In this document: positions 15,840 to 28,437 of the stretch, in pieces | How positions within the stretch are numbered: position 1 is the first letter of the stretch | Layout: every line of letters begins with the position of its first letter | Assembly (NCBI GenBank): GCA_017935945.1 | Contig: JAGBGN010000013.1 | Span: forward strand, 1 to 37,218 | DNA from: Candidatus Methanomethylophilaceae archaeon | GTDB taxonomy: Archaea; Thermoplasmatota; Thermoplasmata; Methanomassiliicoccales; Methanomethylophilaceae | DNA: 37,218 bases | Reading direction: 5' to 3' | Made by a program: the position numbers and the translations under genes | The notes under the pieces: generated by a model | Told to the model about the DNA's origin: nothing | The model's input: only the letters and a program-made list of their open reading frames with translations | Databases searched by the model: none

Positions 15840-15912
15840 AATGTTTTACGAAAAGGCACAGGTGGGTGTGGAACCTGTCCGATGAGACGATGCCATCGGA
15901 CAGGATCCCGAT

Positions 15913-17214
15913 TCAATCGTATGACCTGTTGTCGGTCACGTGCTTACCCTTGCCCTCGAATCTAGGGAGGGTGTTGGGTAGGACAAGCTTCACCTCGGCT
16001 TTGATGTTGAGGACATCCTTCAACCTACGGGAAAGCTCATTCGTCATGCGTCCGATGGAGACGGTATCCTCGGTGAGGGACTCCTCGTTGAACTCGACCT
16101 CCACGACCATGCGGTCCATGTAGTTCTCATTGTCGAGTGTGATATGATAGAACGTGGACAGATAGGACATCTCACCGATGACGCTCTCGATCTGGGACGG
16201 GAACACGTTGACACCACGGACAACGAGCATGTCATCGGTCCTGCCGGATATCCTCATGAGCCTGGGGTGCGTCCTGCCGCAGGAACAGGGTGTCCAATCC
16301 AATGCGGAGATGTCACCGATCTTGTACCTTATGAGGGGGAATGCCTCCTTCTGGAGCATGGTGACGACGATCTCTCCGCGCTCACCATCCTTGCAGGGCT
16401 CCCCGTTCTCATCGAGGATCTCCATGTAGCAGAGGTCCGCCCAGATGTGCAGGCCGTTCTGCTTCTCGCATTCGAGGAACATGGGGCCGTAGAGCTCGCT
16501 CGCACCATAGCAGTTGTGGACACGTATGCCTGTACGCTTCTGGAGCTTCTCCCTCATGCTCTCCGACCATGGTTCCCCACCGGCTATGGCCAACCTGACA
16601 TTGGTGTCGTCACGTATGCTGATGCCCATCTGGTCACAGACATCCGCGATGTGGAAGAGGTAGGAGGGTGTACCGGCCAATGCCGTAACTGGTAGGTCCT
16701 GCATGAGCTGGATCTGCCTGGACGTGTTACCTGTCCCTGTGGGAAGGACAGTGGCACCGATCCTCTCGGCTCCATAGTGGACACCGAGACCGCCGGTGAA
16801 AAGACCGTAGCCGTGACAGTTCTGGAGCATGTCCTTGTTGCTCATACCGAAGGATGTCATCCCCCTGGCGAGGGATTCCGTCCAGGTGTCCATGTCACGT
16901 TTGGTGTATCCGACGACGGTTGGCCTGCCGGTGGTACCTGAGGAGACGTGTATCCTCACGAGATCATCGTAGGGTCTGACGAACAATCCATCAGGGTAGT
17001 AGTCACGAAGGTCGGACTTCCTCATGAACGGGACTTTCCTGAACTTCTCGAAACTATCAATATCTTCAGGGGAGATCCCTGCTGCATCCATCCTATCCTT
17101 GAAGAAGGGGGATGCTTCATACATCTCCTTCACTTTCTCCCTGAGGAGCTTCAACTGGAGTTTCTCCAGCTCCTCGCGGGGCATCGTCTCAATCTCTTCA
17201 TTCCAGAATGCCAT
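15913..17214 (-). CDS. paaK: Phenylacetate/aryl-acetate CoA ligase (AMP-forming)
   Basis: A 433-residue cytoplasmic adenylate-forming enzyme that makes aryl-acetyl-CoA from an aryl acetate, ATP and CoA. The AMP-binding P-loop is VSSGTTGRPTVVGYT. The acceptor motif NCYGASELYGP and the hinge region SGRTDDMLVVRGVNVFPSQIE are typical of PaaK. The length matches the family (about 430). A PaaK C-terminal domain follows the hinge. ATG 17214 is preferred over ATG 17226 because GGTGTGA lies 6 nt upstream. In methanogens such a ligase paired with IOR (here 4199-6606) allows uptake of phenylacetate or indoleacetate into aromatic amino acids. The exact substrate cannot be read from sequence. Confidence 0.93.
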   Translation of the reverse strand: MAFWNEEIETMPREELEKLQLKLLREKVKEMYEASPFFKDRMDAAGISPEDIDSFEKFRKVPFMRKSDLRDYYPDGLFVRPYDDLVRIHVSSGTTGRPTVVGYTKRDMDTWTESLARGMTSFGMSNKDMLQNCHGYGLFTGGLGVHYGAERIGATVLPTGTGNTSRQIQLMQDLPVTALAGTPSYLFHIADVCDQMGISIRDDTNVRLAIAGGEPWSESMREKLQKRTGIRVHNCYGASELYGPMFLECEKQNGLHIWADLCYMEILDENGEPCKDGERGEIVVTMLQKEAFPLIRYKIGDISALDWTPCSCGRTHPRLMRISGRTDDMLVVRGVNVFPSQIESVIGEMSYLSTFYHITLDNENYMDRMVVEVEFNEESLTEDTVSIGRMTNELSRRLKDVLNIKAEVKLVLPNTLPRFEGKGKHVTDNRSYD

Positions 17215-17299
17215 CGTCACACCCATTGTCCCGTGCTATCAATGCTCACGGTATTGAAGGGTATGTTGTCACGTACTTAAACCCATCTAAAGCGATGGT

Positions 17300-20554: not shown

Positions 20555-21463
20555 ATGGCAATCTACGACAGCATCGAACAGACCATCGGTGACACGCCCC
20601 TGGTACGTCTGAACAGGATCAATCCTCCGGGAACCGACATCTTCGTCAAAATCGAAAGGACGAATCCCGGGGGATCCATCAAAGACCGTGCGGTGCTCTC
20701 AATCATCAAGGATGCCGAGGCCCGTGGTGTTCTGAAAAAAGGGGGAACAATAGTCGAGCCCACTTCAGGCAACACCGGCATAGCCATAGCCATGCTATCT
20801 GCAGCACGCGGATACAAGGCCGTCCTCGTCATGCCCGACACCATGTCCAAGGAGAGGATCCTGGGCATGAAGGCGTATGGTGCCGAGGTAGTCCTCTCAC
20901 CGGGCGCAGAGGGGATGAAGGGTGCTGTCGAACTTGCCGAGAGGATAGCATCCGAAAGGGATGGATTCATCTGCGACCAGTTCGGAAACCCCGAGAACAT
21001 CGCGGCCCATCGCACCGGTACCGGGATGGAGATCCTGAGGGACCTCCCGGATGTCGATTACGTGTTCGCTGGATTCGGAACCGGAGGAACCGTCTCCGGG
21101 ATAGGCAAGATATTCAAGGATACTGGTTCGAAGGCCAAAGTCATCGGTGTCGAACCCGCAGAAAGCCCGCTGGTGAGCGAGGGCAGAGCTGGACCCCATG
21201 CCATACAGGGGATCGGTTCCAACTTCATCCCGGATAACCTGGACAGGGATGCCATCGACGACATAGTCACCGTGAAGGGGGATGATGCGATAAGGACCTG
21301 TGTTCAACTCGCAAGGATGGAGGGCATCCTCTGTGGCATCTCGTCCGGTGCATCCGTCTTCGCTGCCATCGAGAGGAGTAGGGCCGAACCTGGCAAGAAG
21401 ATCGTTGCGATACTTCCCGATGGCGGGGAGAAGTACATGAGTCTCGGAATCTTCGACGAATGA
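20555..21463 (+). CDS. cysK: Cysteine synthase (O-acetylserine sulfhydrylase)
   Basis: A 302-residue PLP enzyme of fold type II. The PLP lysine lies in GGSIKDRA (about residues 41-48). The substrate loop is PTSGNTG, the phosphate-binding loop is GTGGTVSG, and the C-terminal ISSGAS is conserved. The length equals bacterial CysK. It replaces the acetyl group of O-acetylserine with sulfide to give cysteine. Given the next gene, activity on O-acetylhomoserine is also possible. It is first in a tight cluster with metA (9-bp gap) and ridA. Confidence 0.94.
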   Translation: MAIYDSIEQTIGDTPLVRLNRINPPGTDIFVKIERTNPGGSIKDRAVLSIIKDAEARGVLKKGGTIVEPTSGNTGIAIAMLSAARGYKAVLVMPDTMSKERILGMKAYGAEVVLSPGAEGMKGAVELAERIASERDGFICDQFGNPENIAAHRTGTGMEILRDLPDVDYVFAGFGTGGTVSGIGKIFKDTGSKAKVIGVEPAESPLVSEGRAGPHAIQGIGSNFIPDNLDRDAIDDIVTVKGDDAIRTCVQLARMEGILCGISSGASVFAAIERSRAEPGKKIVAILPDGGEKYMSLGIFDE

Positions 21464-21472
21464 GGTATCCAC

Positions 21473-22399
21473 GTGCCCGTCAAAATCCCTGATGATCTTC
21501 CCGCAGCATCGATTCTCGAGTCAGAGAACATATTCGTGATGACCGAGAAACGTGCTGACACCCAGGATATCCGTCCCCTGAAGATATTGATCCTCAACCT
21601 CATGCCCACCAAGGTCGAGACCGAGACCCAACTACTGCGTCTGCTCAGTAACAGCCCCATACAGACGGATGTAGAGTTCCTGCAGATGGCAACACACGTG
21701 TCCAAGAACACATCCGCCGAGTACCTCAAAAGGTTCTACAGGAAGTTCGATGACGTCCGTGACAGGAAATTTGATGGGATGATTATAACCGGAGCGCCCG
21801 TGGAGTGCATAGATTTCACCGATGTCGACTACTGGGACGAACTGTGTGAGATCATGGATTGGACACTGACCAATGTATGCTCCACCATGTACATCTGCTG
21901 GGGATCGATGGCGGGGTTGAACTACCATTACGGCATCCCCAAGTACTGCCTCAGTTCGAAGTTGTCCGGCATATTCGAACACAGAAAACTGGATGATAAG
22001 GAACCGATACTGAGGGGTTTCGATGATGTCTTCTTCATGCCCCAGTCCAGACACACCGAGGTCAGGGCGGAGGACATCAAGAAGAACCCGCGCCTCCACA
22101 TCCTGGCCACATCCGATGATTCCGGGGTCGGAATAGTAGTTTCGGAACGCAATCAGGTGTTCATAACAGGACATTTCGAATACGACCGGGGCACGTTGGC
22201 TTACGAATACGAGAGGGACCTGAATGCAGGCATGAATCCCCATATCCCCGACAACTACTTCGAGGATGATGACCCGCACAAGGACCCGATAGTCAGATGG
22301 AGGGGACATGCCACCATGTTCTTCACCAACTGGCTCAACTACAACGTCTATCAGGAGACGCCGTTCGACATAGATGAGATCGGGAGGGACAGGATATGA
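21473..22399 (+). CDS. metA: Homoserine O-acetyltransferase, MetA family
   Basis: A 308-residue cytoplasmic enzyme that activates homoserine for methionine or homocysteine synthesis. The catalytic Cys142 lies in [10 protein letters not shown]. The His and Glu of the triad lie in [15 protein letters not shown]. Residue 111, which sets the acyl donor in this family, is Glu ([10 protein letters not shown]). Gly at this place gives succinyl-CoA specificity, as in E. coli; Glu gives acetyl-CoA, as in Bacillus cereus. I therefore call an acetyltransferase despite the common name homoserine O-succinyltransferase. The start codon is GTG, with GAGGT 6 nt upstream and the usual [12 protein letters not shown]-terminus. 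It overlaps ridA by 4 nt. Confidence 0.94.
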
Positions 22400-22886: not shown

Positions 22887-24020
22887 TCACTGGACGATGG
22901 TCTTGGGATTGACCAGTTTACCGATGATGGCATCCCTGACGAAAGGATTGTATCCGTTCATATCGGGTTTGGTGTCCAGGATGCCCTGTATCTCATCTGC
23001 GATATGGGTGAATACCTCTTTGAATATCCTGCAGGAATCTCCACCGTTGTCCTCCACACACCCCTCGTGATAGGCATCCATGCTGCAACCTCCGTTGCAG
23101 AACCTGTAGATCTCACATGAGGCACATTTCTCGCGTCTTTTGATGGACGATAGTAGGATCCTCCTGAAACCCTCGGATTGGAAAGCTTCGGATATGGATC
23201 CGACCTCGTTTATGTTGCCCATGCAGTACTCCTGGGGACATGCCTTCGCACAGGGATAGATCGTACCATCGGGATTCACCGAGATCCACTTGGTCAGACA
23301 GGAAGTGTGAGCACAATCGGAGGGTGTGGGCTCACCCAGGTAGTTGAGGATGTACAGGTAGTGGGGGATCAGCGGAACCTCGGACTCCGAATCATGGAGC
23401 CATTCATCGAAGGCCTCTATGCTTCCCTTGATGTACTCATCGGCATCGGGAACGGTCCCGTTGCATGAAGCGCAACCTGCGGGTATGACCGGTGAGAACG
23501 ATACATTGGTTCCACGGTCACGGAAGTAACGGTACAGCTCCAACTGCTTAGATGCCGTCTCAGACGAGATCGTGCAGCTGACGGAGTACTTGTCCTCCTT
23601 GTCGGAGAGGTATCCGAGTGTCTTCTCGACATCGCCTTCCCTGAGAACGTTGTTGTACGGCCCCTCATAGGATACTCCGACGTTGATCGCCTTCGTTCTG
23701 CAGTAGGACATGAGCCTGCGATTGATGTTGAGTCCATTGGTCTGGATCGTGTTGCCGTATCTGAATGACTGCTTACCGAAGTACTTCTCCTCAAGCTCTA
23801 TGGCTTTCTTGTAGAACGACAGTGGGACGGTCAAGGGCTCGCCACCGTGCCAAATGAACCAGGCAGACTCGTATTCCTCGGAGACCTTGCGTATAAGGTT
23901 CTCCAAAGTCGCATAATCCATCTCACCTGGAACACGTTCCTCGGGGGTGTGATAGCAATGCCTACAGCTGATGTTACAGAAAAGAGTGGGTTTTACGACC
24001 ACTGAAATGTAGGGTTTCAT
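22887..24020 (-). CDS. Radical SAM/SPASM peptide maturase
   Basis: A 377-residue radical S-adenosylmethionine enzyme. The [4Fe-4S]-SAM motif C-x3-C-x2-C is at Cys15, 19 and 22 (FCNISCRHCY), and the SAM-binding GGEP is at 59-62. From about 236 to 330 a SPASM-type domain carries at least ten cysteines, including C241, C257, C266, C299, C302, C308 and C312 with the FCNGGCSMDA signature. This layout matches anaerobic sulfatase maturases and RiPP maturases. No sulfatase gene is in the window. The gene directly upstream encodes a Cys-rich precursor-like peptide, so I infer that this enzyme installs thioether, epimer or similar modifications on it. ATG 24020 (MKPYISVVV) is chosen; the longer frame to 24185 crosses the precursor gene. 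Confidence 0.93.
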   Translation of the reverse strand: MKPYISVVVKPTLFCNISCRHCYHTPEERVPGEMDYATLENLIRKVSEEYESAWFIWHGGEPLTVPLSFYKKAIELEEKYFGKQSFRYGNTIQTNGLNINRRLMSYCRTKAINVGVSYEGPYNNVLREGDVEKTLGYLSDKEDKYSVSCTISSETASKQLELYRYFRDRGTNVSFSPVIPAGCASCNGTVPDADEYIKGSIEAFDEWLHDSESEVPLIPHYLYILNYLGEPTPSDCAHTSCLTKWISVNPDGTIYPCAKACPQEYCMGNINEVGSISEAFQSEGFRRILLSSIKRREKCASCEIYRFCNGGCSMDAYHEGCVEDNGGDSCRIFKEVFTHIADEIQGILDTKPDMNGYNPFVRDAIIGKLVNPKTIVQ

Positions 24021-24031
24021 GGTAATAAGTT

Positions 24032-24059
24032 CCCGTCGCGGACGATGCACCGCGACGGG
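24032..24059 (-). promoter_or_regulatory. Perfect hairpin between precursor peptide and maturase genes
   Basis: CCCGTCGCGG (24032-24041) and CCGCGACGGG (24050-24059) form a perfect 10-bp stem with an 8-nt loop. It lies 8 bp past the precursor stop and 11 bp before the maturase ATG. It has no U-tract. A structure here would let short precursor transcripts outnumber full-length ones, or protect the precursor 3' end. Confidence 0.55.
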
Positions 24060-24067
24060 TGACAGAC

Positions 24068-24364
24068 TCAGAAGGGCCAGTATGTCCAGACGCCGTTGAA
24101 TCCGTTGGTTGCGTAACAGCAACAGGCGCAACAGACGACGATACAGCCGCCGAGACAGACGTACCACTTGGCGGTTGCGCAGCAACCACTGTCATTGCAA
24201 CATCCGTAGTCGCACTTGGATGCTCCGTCGTGGCTACCCTTGTCGTAACGCTCGGCGTGCTCGGACGGGGGAAGTCCCTCCATGGACAGCGCAATGAATG
24301 CTGCAGGGGACTGGCTCTCATAAAGTGCGGTCAATTTGTCTACTGATTCTGCATCGTATGACAT
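24068..24364 (-). CDS. Cys-rich RiPP precursor-like peptide
   Basis: A 98-residue peptide in two distinct halves. Residues 1-50 are a Cys-free, acidic, leader-like part (MSYDAESVDKLTALYES at the start). Residues 51-98 hold 12 cysteines (51, 55, 56, 61, 62, 70, 74, 78, 79, 81, 82, 83), two of the groups being VCCACCC-like clusters. The tail is aromatic and Gly-rich, ending NGVWTYWPF. ATG 24364 has GGTGAG 5 nt upstream. A minus-strand TATA-like GTTAAATA at 24421-24428 predicts a ~35-nt leader. The radical SAM/SPASM gene follows directly. I infer a ribosomally made, post-translationally modified peptide. Alternatives: a small metal-binding protein, or a Cys-rich membrane peptide, since residues 67-84 are quite hydrophobic. 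I recognise no named family. Confidence 0.75.
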   Translation of the reverse strand: MSYDAESVDKLTALYESQSPAAFIALSMEGLPPSEHAERYDKGSHDGASKCDYGCCNDSGCCATAKWYVCLGGCIVVCCACCCYATNGFNGVWTYWPF

Positions 24365-24526
24365 GATTCTCACCTAAACGGTCGTTACTCGACCCAATAC
24401 TCGGCCGTACCCTTTGCGCATATTTAACTATAACCTAAGCCCAGTGGATACCCAGACTTCGAGATGGTGGAAAAAAGTTCCAGTCCGCCACGGTCAACAG
24501 TTTATAGATGGGTGACATAACCTCCG
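24365..24526. promoter_or_regulatory. Divergent promoter region, precursor peptide / DUF5685-like gene
   Basis: The minus-strand TATA-like GTTAAATA (24421-24428) serves the precursor. Plus-strand TTTATAG (24501-24507), 20-26 bp before ATG 24527, serves the DUF5685-like gene, apparently as a leaderless message. A shared 160-bp promoter region suggests coordinated control. Confidence 0.5.
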
Positions 24527-25441
24527 ATGATGTTCGGATACACCATGCCAGCATACGGAAGGCTATCACCGGCAGACATGCGCCTCTATAGGAAATACTA
24601 CTGCGAGGGATGCCATCAGCTCAGGGATGGTTTCGGCCTCAGAGGTGCTACCACCGTCAACTACGACATGACGTTCAACACCATTCTCCTGAACGCCATC
24701 GCCGGGGATGTGCTCGATTTCGAGGGCACTACCAAGAAGATCTGTGTTCTGCAGAGGTCCCAGGCAGATTCCGAACTCATGCGCGCCATGGCAGCCTATA
24801 CGCTCATCCTCACCAAATGGGAACTGTTCGATGATAAAACCGACAAACCCTCGGTGAAGACCAACATCATCTCATCCGTCCTCAAAAATGCCATCGACAA
24901 GGCCGTCGACATGTATCCCGACTACGACACGATGGTCGGTGAGGGGTTCGCCGCACTCCGCGACCTGGAACTGGCGGGATGCAAGGATGCAAGGATGATG
25001 GGGAACACATTCGGTCGCGGATTGGTGGGAGCATTGGCCGACATAGCCGGCGATAGGAACAGTCCCGAACTGGAGAACGTCTTCGTGGAGCTGTCCACGA
25101 TAGTCTACATCATGGATGCGGTCGACGACCTTGACGATGATTTCATGGATGGTACCTACAACCCGTTCCTGCCGGATAAAGGGTTCAAAAACGGGAAGGA
25201 CCTGATATCCAAAGAACTGTACAGCATCTCGGATTCCATGAACACCACAATCGGATCCCTGCAGGGGTCCTACTCGATGATCAGGGACAGCATGCGCACC
25301 AATGTGAGTCTCTGCGATAACATCGTCTACTACGGGATACCCGAATCCGCGAGGAACGTTCTGACGGGTACCGCCAAGGCCAAGGCGAGCATCAAGAACG
25401 TACTGTCCAATCGCAAGGAACGCAGATCAGACAGGGCCTGA
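24527..25441 (+). CDS. DUF5685-like helical protein with two Asp-rich motifs
   Basis: A 304-residue, mostly alpha-helical soluble protein. The N-terminus MFGYTMPAYG, then LYRKYYCEGC (Cys26, Cys29), matches what I recall of the uncharacterised DUF5685 family, common in anaerobic Firmicutes. Two Asp-rich motifs stand out: DDKTD at 102-106 (a DDxxD), and DAVDDLDDDFMDGTYNP at 197-213. Their type and order resemble class I isoprenoid synthases; the second recalls the Asp-rich, Gly, Tyr, Pro pattern of squalene/phytoene synthases. That link is inference from motifs only. The TATA spacing predicts a leaderless start at 24527 or 24530. It is divergent from the Cys-rich precursor and overlaps the small Cys-rich gene by 15 bp at its 3' end. 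A role in the same peptide system is plausible but unproven. Confidence 0.8.
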   Translation: MMFGYTMPAYGRLSPADMRLYRKYYCEGCHQLRDGFGLRGATTVNYDMTFNTILLNAIAGDVLDFEGTTKKICVLQRSQADSELMRAMAAYTLILTKWELFDDKTDKPSVKTNIISSVLKNAIDKAVDMYPDYDTMVGEGFAALRDLELAGCKDARMMGNTFGRGLVGALADIAGDRNSPELENVFVELSTIVYIMDAVDDLDDDFMDGTYNPFLPDKGFKNGKDLISKELYSISDSMNTTIGSLQGSYSMIRDSMRTNVSLCDNIVYYGIPESARNVLTGTAKAKASIKNVLSNRKERRSDRA

Positions 25442-25663
25442 TGGATCGTACCTGTCACAGACCTCCAGGTCCATGACCTCCGCCCCAGTGACCGTGCATG
25501 TTCCAGAACTGTAGTGGTTGCAGTTCCCACAACTACCGGGACGATACCTGTCGCAGGTGGAATCATTGTCTGTCGGGACGTTCTCGATCGTACACACCCA
25601 TGATTCTCCGGCATGACGACAGTATCTGCATGTCCTGCATTTACGGTAGTTCTCGTTGGTCAT
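25427..25663 (-). CDS. Small protein with duplicated four-Cys motif
   Basis: A 78-residue protein with nine cysteines. Two tandem copies of C-x2-C-x7/8-C-x12-C-D-R-Y are visible: Cys12/15/24/37 and Cys45/48/56/69, each ending in DRY, plus Cys9. Such spacing suggests two small Zn or Fe-S knots. ATG 25663 is chosen because GAGGGGGTG lies immediately upstream; ATG 25693 would add ten residues. Its 3' end overlaps the convergent DUF5685-like gene by 15 bp. I recognise no named family. It might belong to the Cys-peptide locus, for example as a redox or metal-handling partner. Confidence 0.7.
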   Translation of the reverse strand: MTNENYRKCRTCRYCRHAGESWVCTIENVPTDNDSTCDRYRPGSCGNCNHYSSGTCTVTGAEVMDLEVCDRYDPSGPV

Positions 25664-27909: not shown

Positions 27910-28437
27910 TCACACCTTTATGTCCCTATTGGGGATGTGGCTGCGGATAGCCGTGTAGACCAGATTGTATGGGATCCCCATCTCGATGGATATCGCCACG
28001 CAGGACATCCCATGGCGGTAGCACTCTATGACGCGCTTGAACTTCTCCTCATCCAATGCGTTCTCGTTCCGGTCCACTTTGCCATCCGACGAGGAGTTGT
28101 CCAGATTCCAATCCCTGGACGAGCATGACGGGCACCTTTTGGGGACCCTGCTGCCCTTGACCACCCAGGTCTCGTTACAACGTTTGCACGTATAGGAGTT
28201 CGGGGGCACATTCCATTGGTGTGAACCGCATTCCGGGCACCTCTTGGGTGATCCGTTGTGGGAGTTCCACGTATGGTTGCACCTGGTGCATGTGACAGTC
28301 AACTCCGGCATATCCCACTTGATGGAACGACAGCGAGGACACCTTTTGGGAGGTTCCTCCCTGCGTGGCACCCATGTATAGGTACAACGTGAACATTTCA
28401 AGAGCGGATATGGACCAGGAATCAATTTAACACCCAA
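27910..28437 (-). CDS. Three tandem zinc ribbons plus C-terminal HTH protein
   Basis: A 175-residue protein. Three near-identical zinc ribbons follow each other, each C-x2-C-x3-W ... PKRCPxC-x4-W, with Cys15/18/33/36, Cys50/53/67/70 and Cys84/87/102/105. A Ser/Asp-rich linker leads to a helix-turn-helix at about 129-168 (EEKFKRVIECYRHGMSC, then GIPYNLVYTAI). Nucleic-acid binding is likely; a specific role is not known. The only upstream starts in frame are TTG codons. TTG 28437 lies about 26 bp from TATA-like TTTAATAC, which predicts a leaderless message starting on TTG. It is first in an operon with the hydrolase and acetyltransferase. Confidence 0.8.
   Translation of the reverse strand: MGVKLIPGPYPLLKCSRCTYTWVPRREEPPKRCPRCRSIKWDMPELTVTCTRCNHTWNSHNGSPKRCPECGSHQWNVPPNSYTCKRCNETWVVKGSRVPKRCPSCSSRDWNLDNSSSDGKVDRNENALDEEKFKRVIECYRHGMSCVAISIEMGIPYNLVYTAIRSHIPNRDIKV

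Follow-up and report, generated by a model that had tools for sequence, protein, structure and literature searches.

What does a gut methanogen make with a short cysteine-rich peptide gene, a radical S-adenosylmethionine (SAM) gene and a gene for a DUF5685 protein standing side by side? The question is raised by positions 22887-25663 of a stretch of 37,218 nucleotides, called here the window, from contig JAGBGN010000013.1 of a Candidatus Methanomethylophilaceae archaeon. Four open reading frames (ORFs) had been placed there by a sequence-only reading, and inspection of the frames bore them out: a radical SAM protein with a SPASM domain (P0001), a peptide of 98 residues with 12 Cys (P0002), a divergent DUF5685 protein (P0003) and a small Cys-motif protein (P0004). 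The locus is a real and conserved archaeal radical-SAM/peptide system of gut methanogens, apparently undescribed so far, and its DUF5685 part may be categorically new. The overall explanation that we tentatively prefer is that the locus would make and mature, inside the cell, a short Cys-rich peptide associated with the membrane, with the radical SAM enzyme and the DUF5685 protein both acting on the tail of this peptide.

The genes are kept as a unit. Among 60 sampled Methanomethylophilaceae genomes (numbered G, and their loci L), relatives of P0002 were found in 47, a 48th match (G074) sitting in an unrelated frame, and DUF5685 was present in 51, while no genome had the peptide without DUF5685. 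Four genomes had DUF5685 and no peptide match; in one of them (G032) a peptide and a maturase are present in diverged form, and in the remaining three the locus is cut by contig ends. Both peptide and DUF5685 were missing from nine genomes, two of which are more than 95% complete. The peptide, maturase and DUF5685 genes are gained and lost together. The same gene arrangement was seen in all 46 named loci located through the maturase, as far as the contigs extend, including two (L071 and L073) in which a long diverged peptide was identified only by the reading frame upstream of the maturase. The order peptide, radical SAM, DUF5685 is fixed in every sufficiently long locus examined across the family, and one genome (G053) has two copies of the locus, each complete. 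The protein distances of the three also correlate (r 0.87-0.92), as shared ancestry alone would make them do. A short peptide gene that is conserved next to the gene of a modifying enzyme and inherited together with it characterizes a ribosomally synthesized and post-translationally modified peptide (RiPP) system in the broad sense, and this is what the locus holds. The proposal that the genes form one system is therefore upheld by the family-wide pairing of maturase and peptide with their constant DUF5685 partner; loss of that pairing in relatives, which had been named as the outcome to fear, was not what the family loci showed.

The ratio of nonsynonymous to synonymous substitution rates (dN/dS) was below 1 in all usable pairs, with medians of 0.23 for the peptide, 0.26 for P0004, 0.22 for DUF5685 and 0.16 for the radical SAM protein, so all four frames are coding. 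Together with the occurrence of P0002 across the family, this means that the peptide is not a chance ORF.

The C-x3-C-x2-C motif and SPASM tail attributed to P0001 are both present. The Pfam models Radical_SAM (34.8 bits) and SPASM (34.2 bits) pass their cut-offs and, numbering from the ATG at 24020, the radical SAM (RS) cluster is C15-x3-C19-x2-C22. These three Cys and eight others are invariant in 36/36 sequences. The eight align with the auxiliary (Aux) clusters of the anaerobic sulfatase-maturing enzymes (anSMEs) and, from this alignment and from what is known of anSME, we take them to be the putative Aux I (C236/C241/C257/C312) and Aux II (C299/C302/C308/C330) ligands. The closest relatives in the Protein Data Bank (PDB) are the anSME structures 4k36 and 4k37 (E 1e-26), whereas the top NCBIfam score belongs to DynA, 165 bits against a cut-off of 450. 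P0001 remains far below the cut-offs of DynA, DarE, TIGR04083 (120 bits, the third-best score, cut-off 300), SCIFF TIGR03974, PapB, Clo7bot and CcpM. PADLOC returned weak viperin matches alone for the radical SAM protein and no defence system. When 145 genomes of the phylum were searched, P0001 was confined to Methanomethylophilaceae at E <= 1e-40, and no other SPASM protein was found in its own genome, in which, at 99% completeness, no sulfatase (PF00884) was found. By its sequence P0001 forms a separate clade of SPASM enzymes, constantly paired with a peptide, because of this restriction to the family, its being the sole SPASM protein found, the missing sulfatase and a best NCBIfam score so far under the cut-off. 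It very likely modifies P0002.

P0002 has the layout described for it, 98 residues of which 1-50 are free of Cys and 51-83 hold 12 Cys. Its parts are a helical N-terminal part with L-x3-Y-x2-Q-S, a Cys cluster (C51/C55/C56/C62), a hydrophobic Cys-rich helix at 65-85 and a C-terminal GFxGxWTYWPF. Residues Y15, Q18, C51, C55, C56, C82, Y84, W96 and P97 are invariant in 45/45 sequences, with C62 and C83 nearly so, and the invariant C-terminal W-P is followed by F, N or Y. The number of Cys varies from 8 to 14 among these relatives, the figure of 12 not being conserved, and Y, G, L, V or A often stand in place of Cys 61, 70, 74, 78 and 79. The idea of the Cys-rich core as an obligate set of cross-links is not supported by this comparison, most of the mid-segment Cys being replaceable by V, L, G or A. 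Distant relatives (L113-L117) show CYxCCGxxC, an aliphatic helix, CC[AS]Y and a WPF end. A segment of 17 residues with a Kyte-Doolittle mean of at least 1.98 was found in 38/38 peptides, and the AlphaFold model has a helix at 65-85 with a pLDDT of about 83 at its centre. With Cys counted as Ser the median hydropathy drops to 1.28, and the membrane reading is thus partly dependent on Cys. The Cys-rich segment is probably a membrane-inserting hydrophobic helix between two small Cys clusters, and not twelve cross-link sites. Scans of the 38 peptides with Pfam and NCBIfam gave no convincing family, P0002 itself having no NCBIfam match; no relatives were found in plasmids, and only chance matches in phages.

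The DUF5685-like character of P0003 was likewise confirmed, the match to PF18937 being of full length (E 2e-42, 145.9 bits over a cut-off of 26.7). The protein contains D101-D102-x2-D105 and D196-x3-D200-x3-D204 followed by N211-P212, as well as Y24-C25-x2-C28-H29 and C72, all of them invariant in 34/34 archaeal sequences. The likeness of the two Asp-rich motifs to those of squalene and phytoene synthases was spotted ahead of the structure search. The AlphaFold model is all helical (pLDDT 85.9, pTM 0.85) and, when it was compared with the PDB by Foldseek, every one of the top 50 matches was an isoprenoid synthase or a prenyltransferase, with a UbiA homologue among them. In short local hhalign alignments each Asp-rich motif fell in line with its counterpart in archaeal geranylgeranyl diphosphate synthases, although the overall comparison was not significant. 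From these models P0003 probably has an isoprenoid-synthase fold. The same genome encodes two ordinary polyprenyl synthases, and DUF5685 is therefore not the house enzyme. PDB sequence searches with DUF5685 profiles gave nothing meaningful, a search of a viral fold library with P0003 gave scattered weak matches, a few of them to UbiA or terpenoid synthases, and viral contigs held no relatives of P0003 or of the bacterial DUF5685.

The bacterial members of the family that were sampled also lie beside, or carry, Cys-rich tails. Nine bacterial DUF5685 loci were sampled, five of clostridial type and four actinobacterial. In the clostridial type a J-domain protein (PF00226) with a Cys-rich C-terminal tail directly follows DUF5685 in 5/5 loci, the C-termini being LLCNCCCFRPY, LLCNCCCCGGGF, MCGSNLCLPLCCLYSLCPGGYCFFC, GCSCCDMCTAMMCMDMCCGCGRGGC and ACIFCCHEGC; in the annotated locus L089 the last 25 residues of the J-domain protein include 7 Cys, against 0-1 for 18 neighbours. 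In the actinobacterial proteins the Cys-rich tail is fused to DUF5685 itself (4/4, with 7-15 Cys within the last 40 residues). This makes the archaeal free peptide, the clostridial J-domain neighbour and the actinobacterial fusion three arrangements of one association between DUF5685 and Cys tails, and on this comparison it is reasonably probable that DUF5685 acts on the Cys-rich tail. Two of the loci (L093 and L094; MT835850.1 and MT835652.1) are named 'Bacteriophage sp.' and carry bacterial household genes, such as the folylpolyglutamate-synthase-like gene that adjoins DUF5685 in L094; these records look like mislabelled bacterial contigs. Another (L078/L120, G081:C12:172000-187500) has a clostridial-type DUF5685, the J-domain gene and DnaK on a 765-kb contig in a genome that belongs to a different family of the order, by contamination or transfer. 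On a Nocardia plasmid (L095:7122-7862) the gene after DUF5685 encodes a further all-alpha-looking protein, possibly isoprenoid-synthase-like as well, with the motif YLDALRDWPSD.

In the mechanism that we propose P0002 would be the substrate, its helical N-terminal part with L-x3-Y-x2-Q-S being the likely recognition segment. The radical SAM enzyme, with three predicted iron-sulfur (Fe-S) clusters, would install a radical cross-link or other change on the tail, which might be a Cys thioether or a cyclophane of the C-terminal aromatic residues; the thioether or epimer chemistry put forward in the sequence-only reading is conjectural. DUF5685, with its likely all-alpha isoprenoid-synthase fold, would act on Cys-rich hydrophobic C-terminal tails. 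The version we find most attractive is that its two Asp-rich motifs would bind a prenyl diphosphate, from which the prenyl group would pass to tail Cys, so that the product would be anchored in the membrane. In protein farnesyltransferase zinc activates the acceptor thiol, and C25/C28/C72 of DUF5685 could hold a metal of this function. That DUF5685 is an S-prenyltransferase appears from the models a possibility, if a doubtful one. Slightly more doubtful still is the wider idea that it may be an unrecognised class of protein S-prenyltransferase, or prenyl-dependent modifier of Cys tails, serving the J-domain Cys strings of clostridia, its own tail in actinobacteria and a membrane peptide together with a radical SAM enzyme in Methanomethylophilaceae.

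Several observations weigh against this scheme. The Foldseek matches of P0003 have E values of 0.015-0.3 and template modelling (TM) scores of about 0.5 at best (probability 1.00 for the best), none being significant at 0.001, and hhalign of the DUF5685 profile against archaeal geranylgeranyl diphosphate (GGPP) and polyprenyl synthases was not significant either. The fold is for these reasons likely rather than proven, and catalysis by DUF5685 is not established by matches of this strength. Its invariant C25/C28/C72 are equally suited to metal binding. The confidence of the P0002 model is low outside the helix (pLDDT 59), the radical and prenyl modifications of P0002 are putative, and the link to Cys tails comes from nine bacterial loci that include the two unverified 'phage' contigs and one possibly contaminating contig (L078).

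The locus can also be explained as that of an ordinary Cys-rich RiPP, with P0002 made of leader and core, thioethers formed by the radical SAM enzyme as in ranthipeptides or sactipeptides, DUF5685 and P0004 in accessory functions such as immunity or recognition, and the last steps left to a protease and an exporter that are not linked to the locus. Such a system would be expected to have its SPASM enzyme directly downstream of a small Cys-rich peptide, as is seen here, the best scores of the enzyme are to RiPP maturases and anSME, and the hairpin between precursor and maturase genes (see below) fits the usual excess of precursor over enzyme. Nevertheless we find it unlikely. No leader protease or exporter conserved near the locus was seen within +/-6 kb of the named loci, which tells against a conventional secreted RiPP and fits a product remaining in the cell or membrane, although a protease or exporter acting in trans may exist. 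The C-terminal half of P0002 is constrained like the leader (dN/dS 0.23 against 0.21) and kept family-wide, unlike the diversifying cores of RiPPs; moreover its mid-segment Cys are mostly replaceable and the enzyme is below every NCBIfam maturase cut-off. The chance that the maturase is instead an anaerobic sulfatase maturase, paired with the peptide incidentally, is negligible. Its best solved relatives are indeed anSMEs, and it scores 151 bits to TIGR03942, but the cut-off of that model is 349 bits, the catalytic Asp of anSME (after YPC) is Ala or Gly in 36/36 relatives, and the partner fixed across the family is a peptide, no sulfatase having been found in the 99%-complete genome. This identity was rejected, and with it went the objection raised beforehand that a sulfatase maturase might have its sulfatase elsewhere in the genome.

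The invariant C25, C28, C72 and H29 of DUF5685 and the two Cys modules of P0004 can also be read as metal or Fe-S handling, in which the Cys-rich tails of P0002, the J-domain proteins and the actinobacterial fusions would be ligands of metal or Fe-S, with DUF5685 as the partner in its loading or use and P0004 as a further metal protein. Fe-S assembly is among the tasks that J-domain proteins can have, as in HscB, and cysteine-synthase-like and homoserine-transsuccinylase-like genes adjoin many loci, which count in the same direction. It leaves the invariant Asp-rich motifs and the isoprenoid-synthase-like fold without a role, however, and many tail Cys are exchangeable for aliphatic residues in a tail that is strongly hydrophobic; we regard it as distinctly improbable. 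Lower again we place an inactive, isoprenoid-synthase-like DUF5685 that shields or escorts hydrophobic Cys tails as a chaperone, in the manner of Rab escort protein, leaving the radical SAM enzyme alone to modify the peptide. The low significance of the fold resemblance would suit such a chaperone, as would the J-domain proteins co-encoded in clostridia, with DnaK too in one locus, but the Asp residues of both motifs are all invariant in the 34 archaeal sequences, as expected for catalysis rather than escort.

Table 1. Genes and putative signals of the locus (window positions)
Feature	Position	Strand	Basis
P0001, putative radical SAM/SPASM maturase of the peptide, 377 aa counted from the ATG at 24020	22887..24020	-	Pfam, relatives, PDB comparison
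Stem-loop between peptide and maturase genes, 10-bp stem CCCGTCGCGG/CCGCGACGGG, loop with GCATCGT	24032..24059	-	Minimum free energy, covariation
Putative precursor/substrate peptide P0002, 98 aa	24068..24364	-	ORF, relatives, dN/dS 0.23
Shine-Dalgarno GGTGA of peptide gene	24370..24374	-	Sequence; conserved in relatives
Inverted repeat GGTCG-agtaa-CGACC directly upstream of peptide Shine-Dalgarno	24380..24394	-	Stem statistics against shuffles
TATA-like box of peptide gene	about 24421-24427	-	Sequence
DUF5685 protein P0003, conserved start MFGYT at 24530	24527..25441	+	Pfam PF18937, AlphaFold2, Foldseek
Small Cys-motif protein P0004	25427..25663	-	Family alignment; most but not all loci

The genes of P0003 and P0002 are divergent, as had been said, with a gap of 162 bp between them (Table 1). 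The 'shared promoter' proposed for them is better read as two divergent promoters in this gap, the peptide gene having its own TATA-like box. The placement of the GGTGA favours a start of the peptide at the ATG at 24364 and not at the GTG at 24373, three codons upstream, which would give 101 residues. The inverted repeat close to the Shine-Dalgarno has a constant place and a changing sequence across the family (mean best stem 5.0 against 3.28 when shuffled, 0/500), and the controls upstream of DUF5685 and P0004 were null; RNAalifold on a MAFFT alignment of the 5' upstream regions did not recover it, giving no pairs. In many relatives GTAC half-sites (GGTAC...GTACC) lie further upstream, suggesting, with the repeat, a putative operator or a hairpin of the 5' untranslated region.

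The peptide gene is separated by 47 bp from the radical SAM gene downstream, and the hairpin in this interval has a minimum free energy of -22.3 (z -3.9). In 11 closer relatives its GCATCGT loop is invariant, 97% of the pairs are kept and compensatory changes occur at 5 of 10 pairs, against at most 1 in slid controls. It may set the ratio of peptide to enzyme. Another hairpin (CCTGTCCGAT..ATCGGACAGG), with a perfect stem of 10 bp and again GCATCGT in its loop, lies at about 15870-15910 (-) of the window, where the gene at 15913-17226 (-) has its 3' end; the other occurrences of GCATCGT in the genome are inside coding genes without hairpins. No Rfam family matched.

P0004 is antisense to P0003 and overlaps the 3' end of DUF5685 by 15 nt, in agreement with the overlap first described. 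Its family alignment shows two CxxC-type modules (C9, C12, C15, C24, C37 and C45, C48, C56, C69), no Pfam or NCBIfam match was over the cut-off, and it is single copy in the genome. In five loci (L033, L037, L039, L041 and L044) its frame is open far beyond the usual stop, antisense to DUF5685. The cysteine-synthase-like and homoserine-transsuccinylase-like genes are at 20555-22399 (+) of the window, convergent with the maturase, and about half of the named loci have the same neighbours. At 27910-28437 (-) the window also encodes a protein with three tandem C4 zinc-ribbon-like repeats (CSRCTYTWVPR..., CTRCNHTWNS..., CKRCNETWVV...).

Little has been written on radical-SAM peptide systems of gut methanogens. 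In the literature searched, which left subscription journals and preprints mostly outside, no paper on Methanomassiliicoccales brought RiPP and radical SAM together, none joined Methanomethylophilaceae to radical SAM, and there was no functional hypothesis for DUF5685. The domain appears there in a single paper, as an item in a domain list (PMC9403866). As the constant partner of the system DUF5685 gains here its first functional hypothesis, for which the most informative clue is the fold together with the bacterial link to Cys-rich tails. An isoprenoid-synthase-like fold and Cys-rich hydrophobic tails common to the archaeal family, Clostridia and Actinobacteria give the entire protein family a testable proposal, which could bring to light the prenylation of proteins, or some other modification of Cys strings, in prokaryotes. 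If true, this would be a prokaryotic parallel to the eukaryotic cysteine string proteins and a new class of doubly modified peptides.

Among known systems the anSMEs (4k36/4k37, TIGR03942) share with P0001 the domain plan, the RS cluster and both sets of auxiliary ligands, whereas P0001 has no catalytic Asp, has a peptide partner instead of a sulfatase and is below the cut-off. The SPASM maturases that form cyclophanes or ethers, such as DynA and DarE (NF041298, NF038005, TIGR04261), resemble it in the highest NCBIfam score (DynA), in a short peptide substrate and in the invariantly aromatic C-terminus of P0002; they differ in that P0001 is well below the 450 bits, P0002 is hydrophobic and Cys-rich and no exporter or protease is conserved nearby. 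The methanogen peptide-modifying radical SAM family TIGR04083 is SPASM-type, named for methanogens and third in score, but P0001 does not reach its cut-off and P0002 matches no NCBIfam model. With polyprenyl synthases and prenyltransferases (Rv0562, MoeN5, farnesyl diphosphate synthase) DUF5685 shares a predicted all-alpha fold and two Asp-rich motifs in matching order, although there is no significant sequence or profile similarity and DUF5685 has extra invariant Cys. The DUF5685 proteins of Clostridia and Actinobacteria belong to the same Pfam family (PF18937) and have the same association with Cys-rich tails, and the clostridial members aligned share the YCxxC and Asp-rich motifs; their tail is on a J-domain protein or fused, with no radical SAM gene annotated beside DUF5685 in L089, whereas the archaeal tail is on a free peptide associated with a radical SAM enzyme. 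Finally, a J-domain with a Cys string is the plan of the eukaryotic cysteine string protein (DNAJC5), whose Cys string is lipidated, and the clostridial neighbours of DUF5685 follow this plan, the likeness being one of architecture only.

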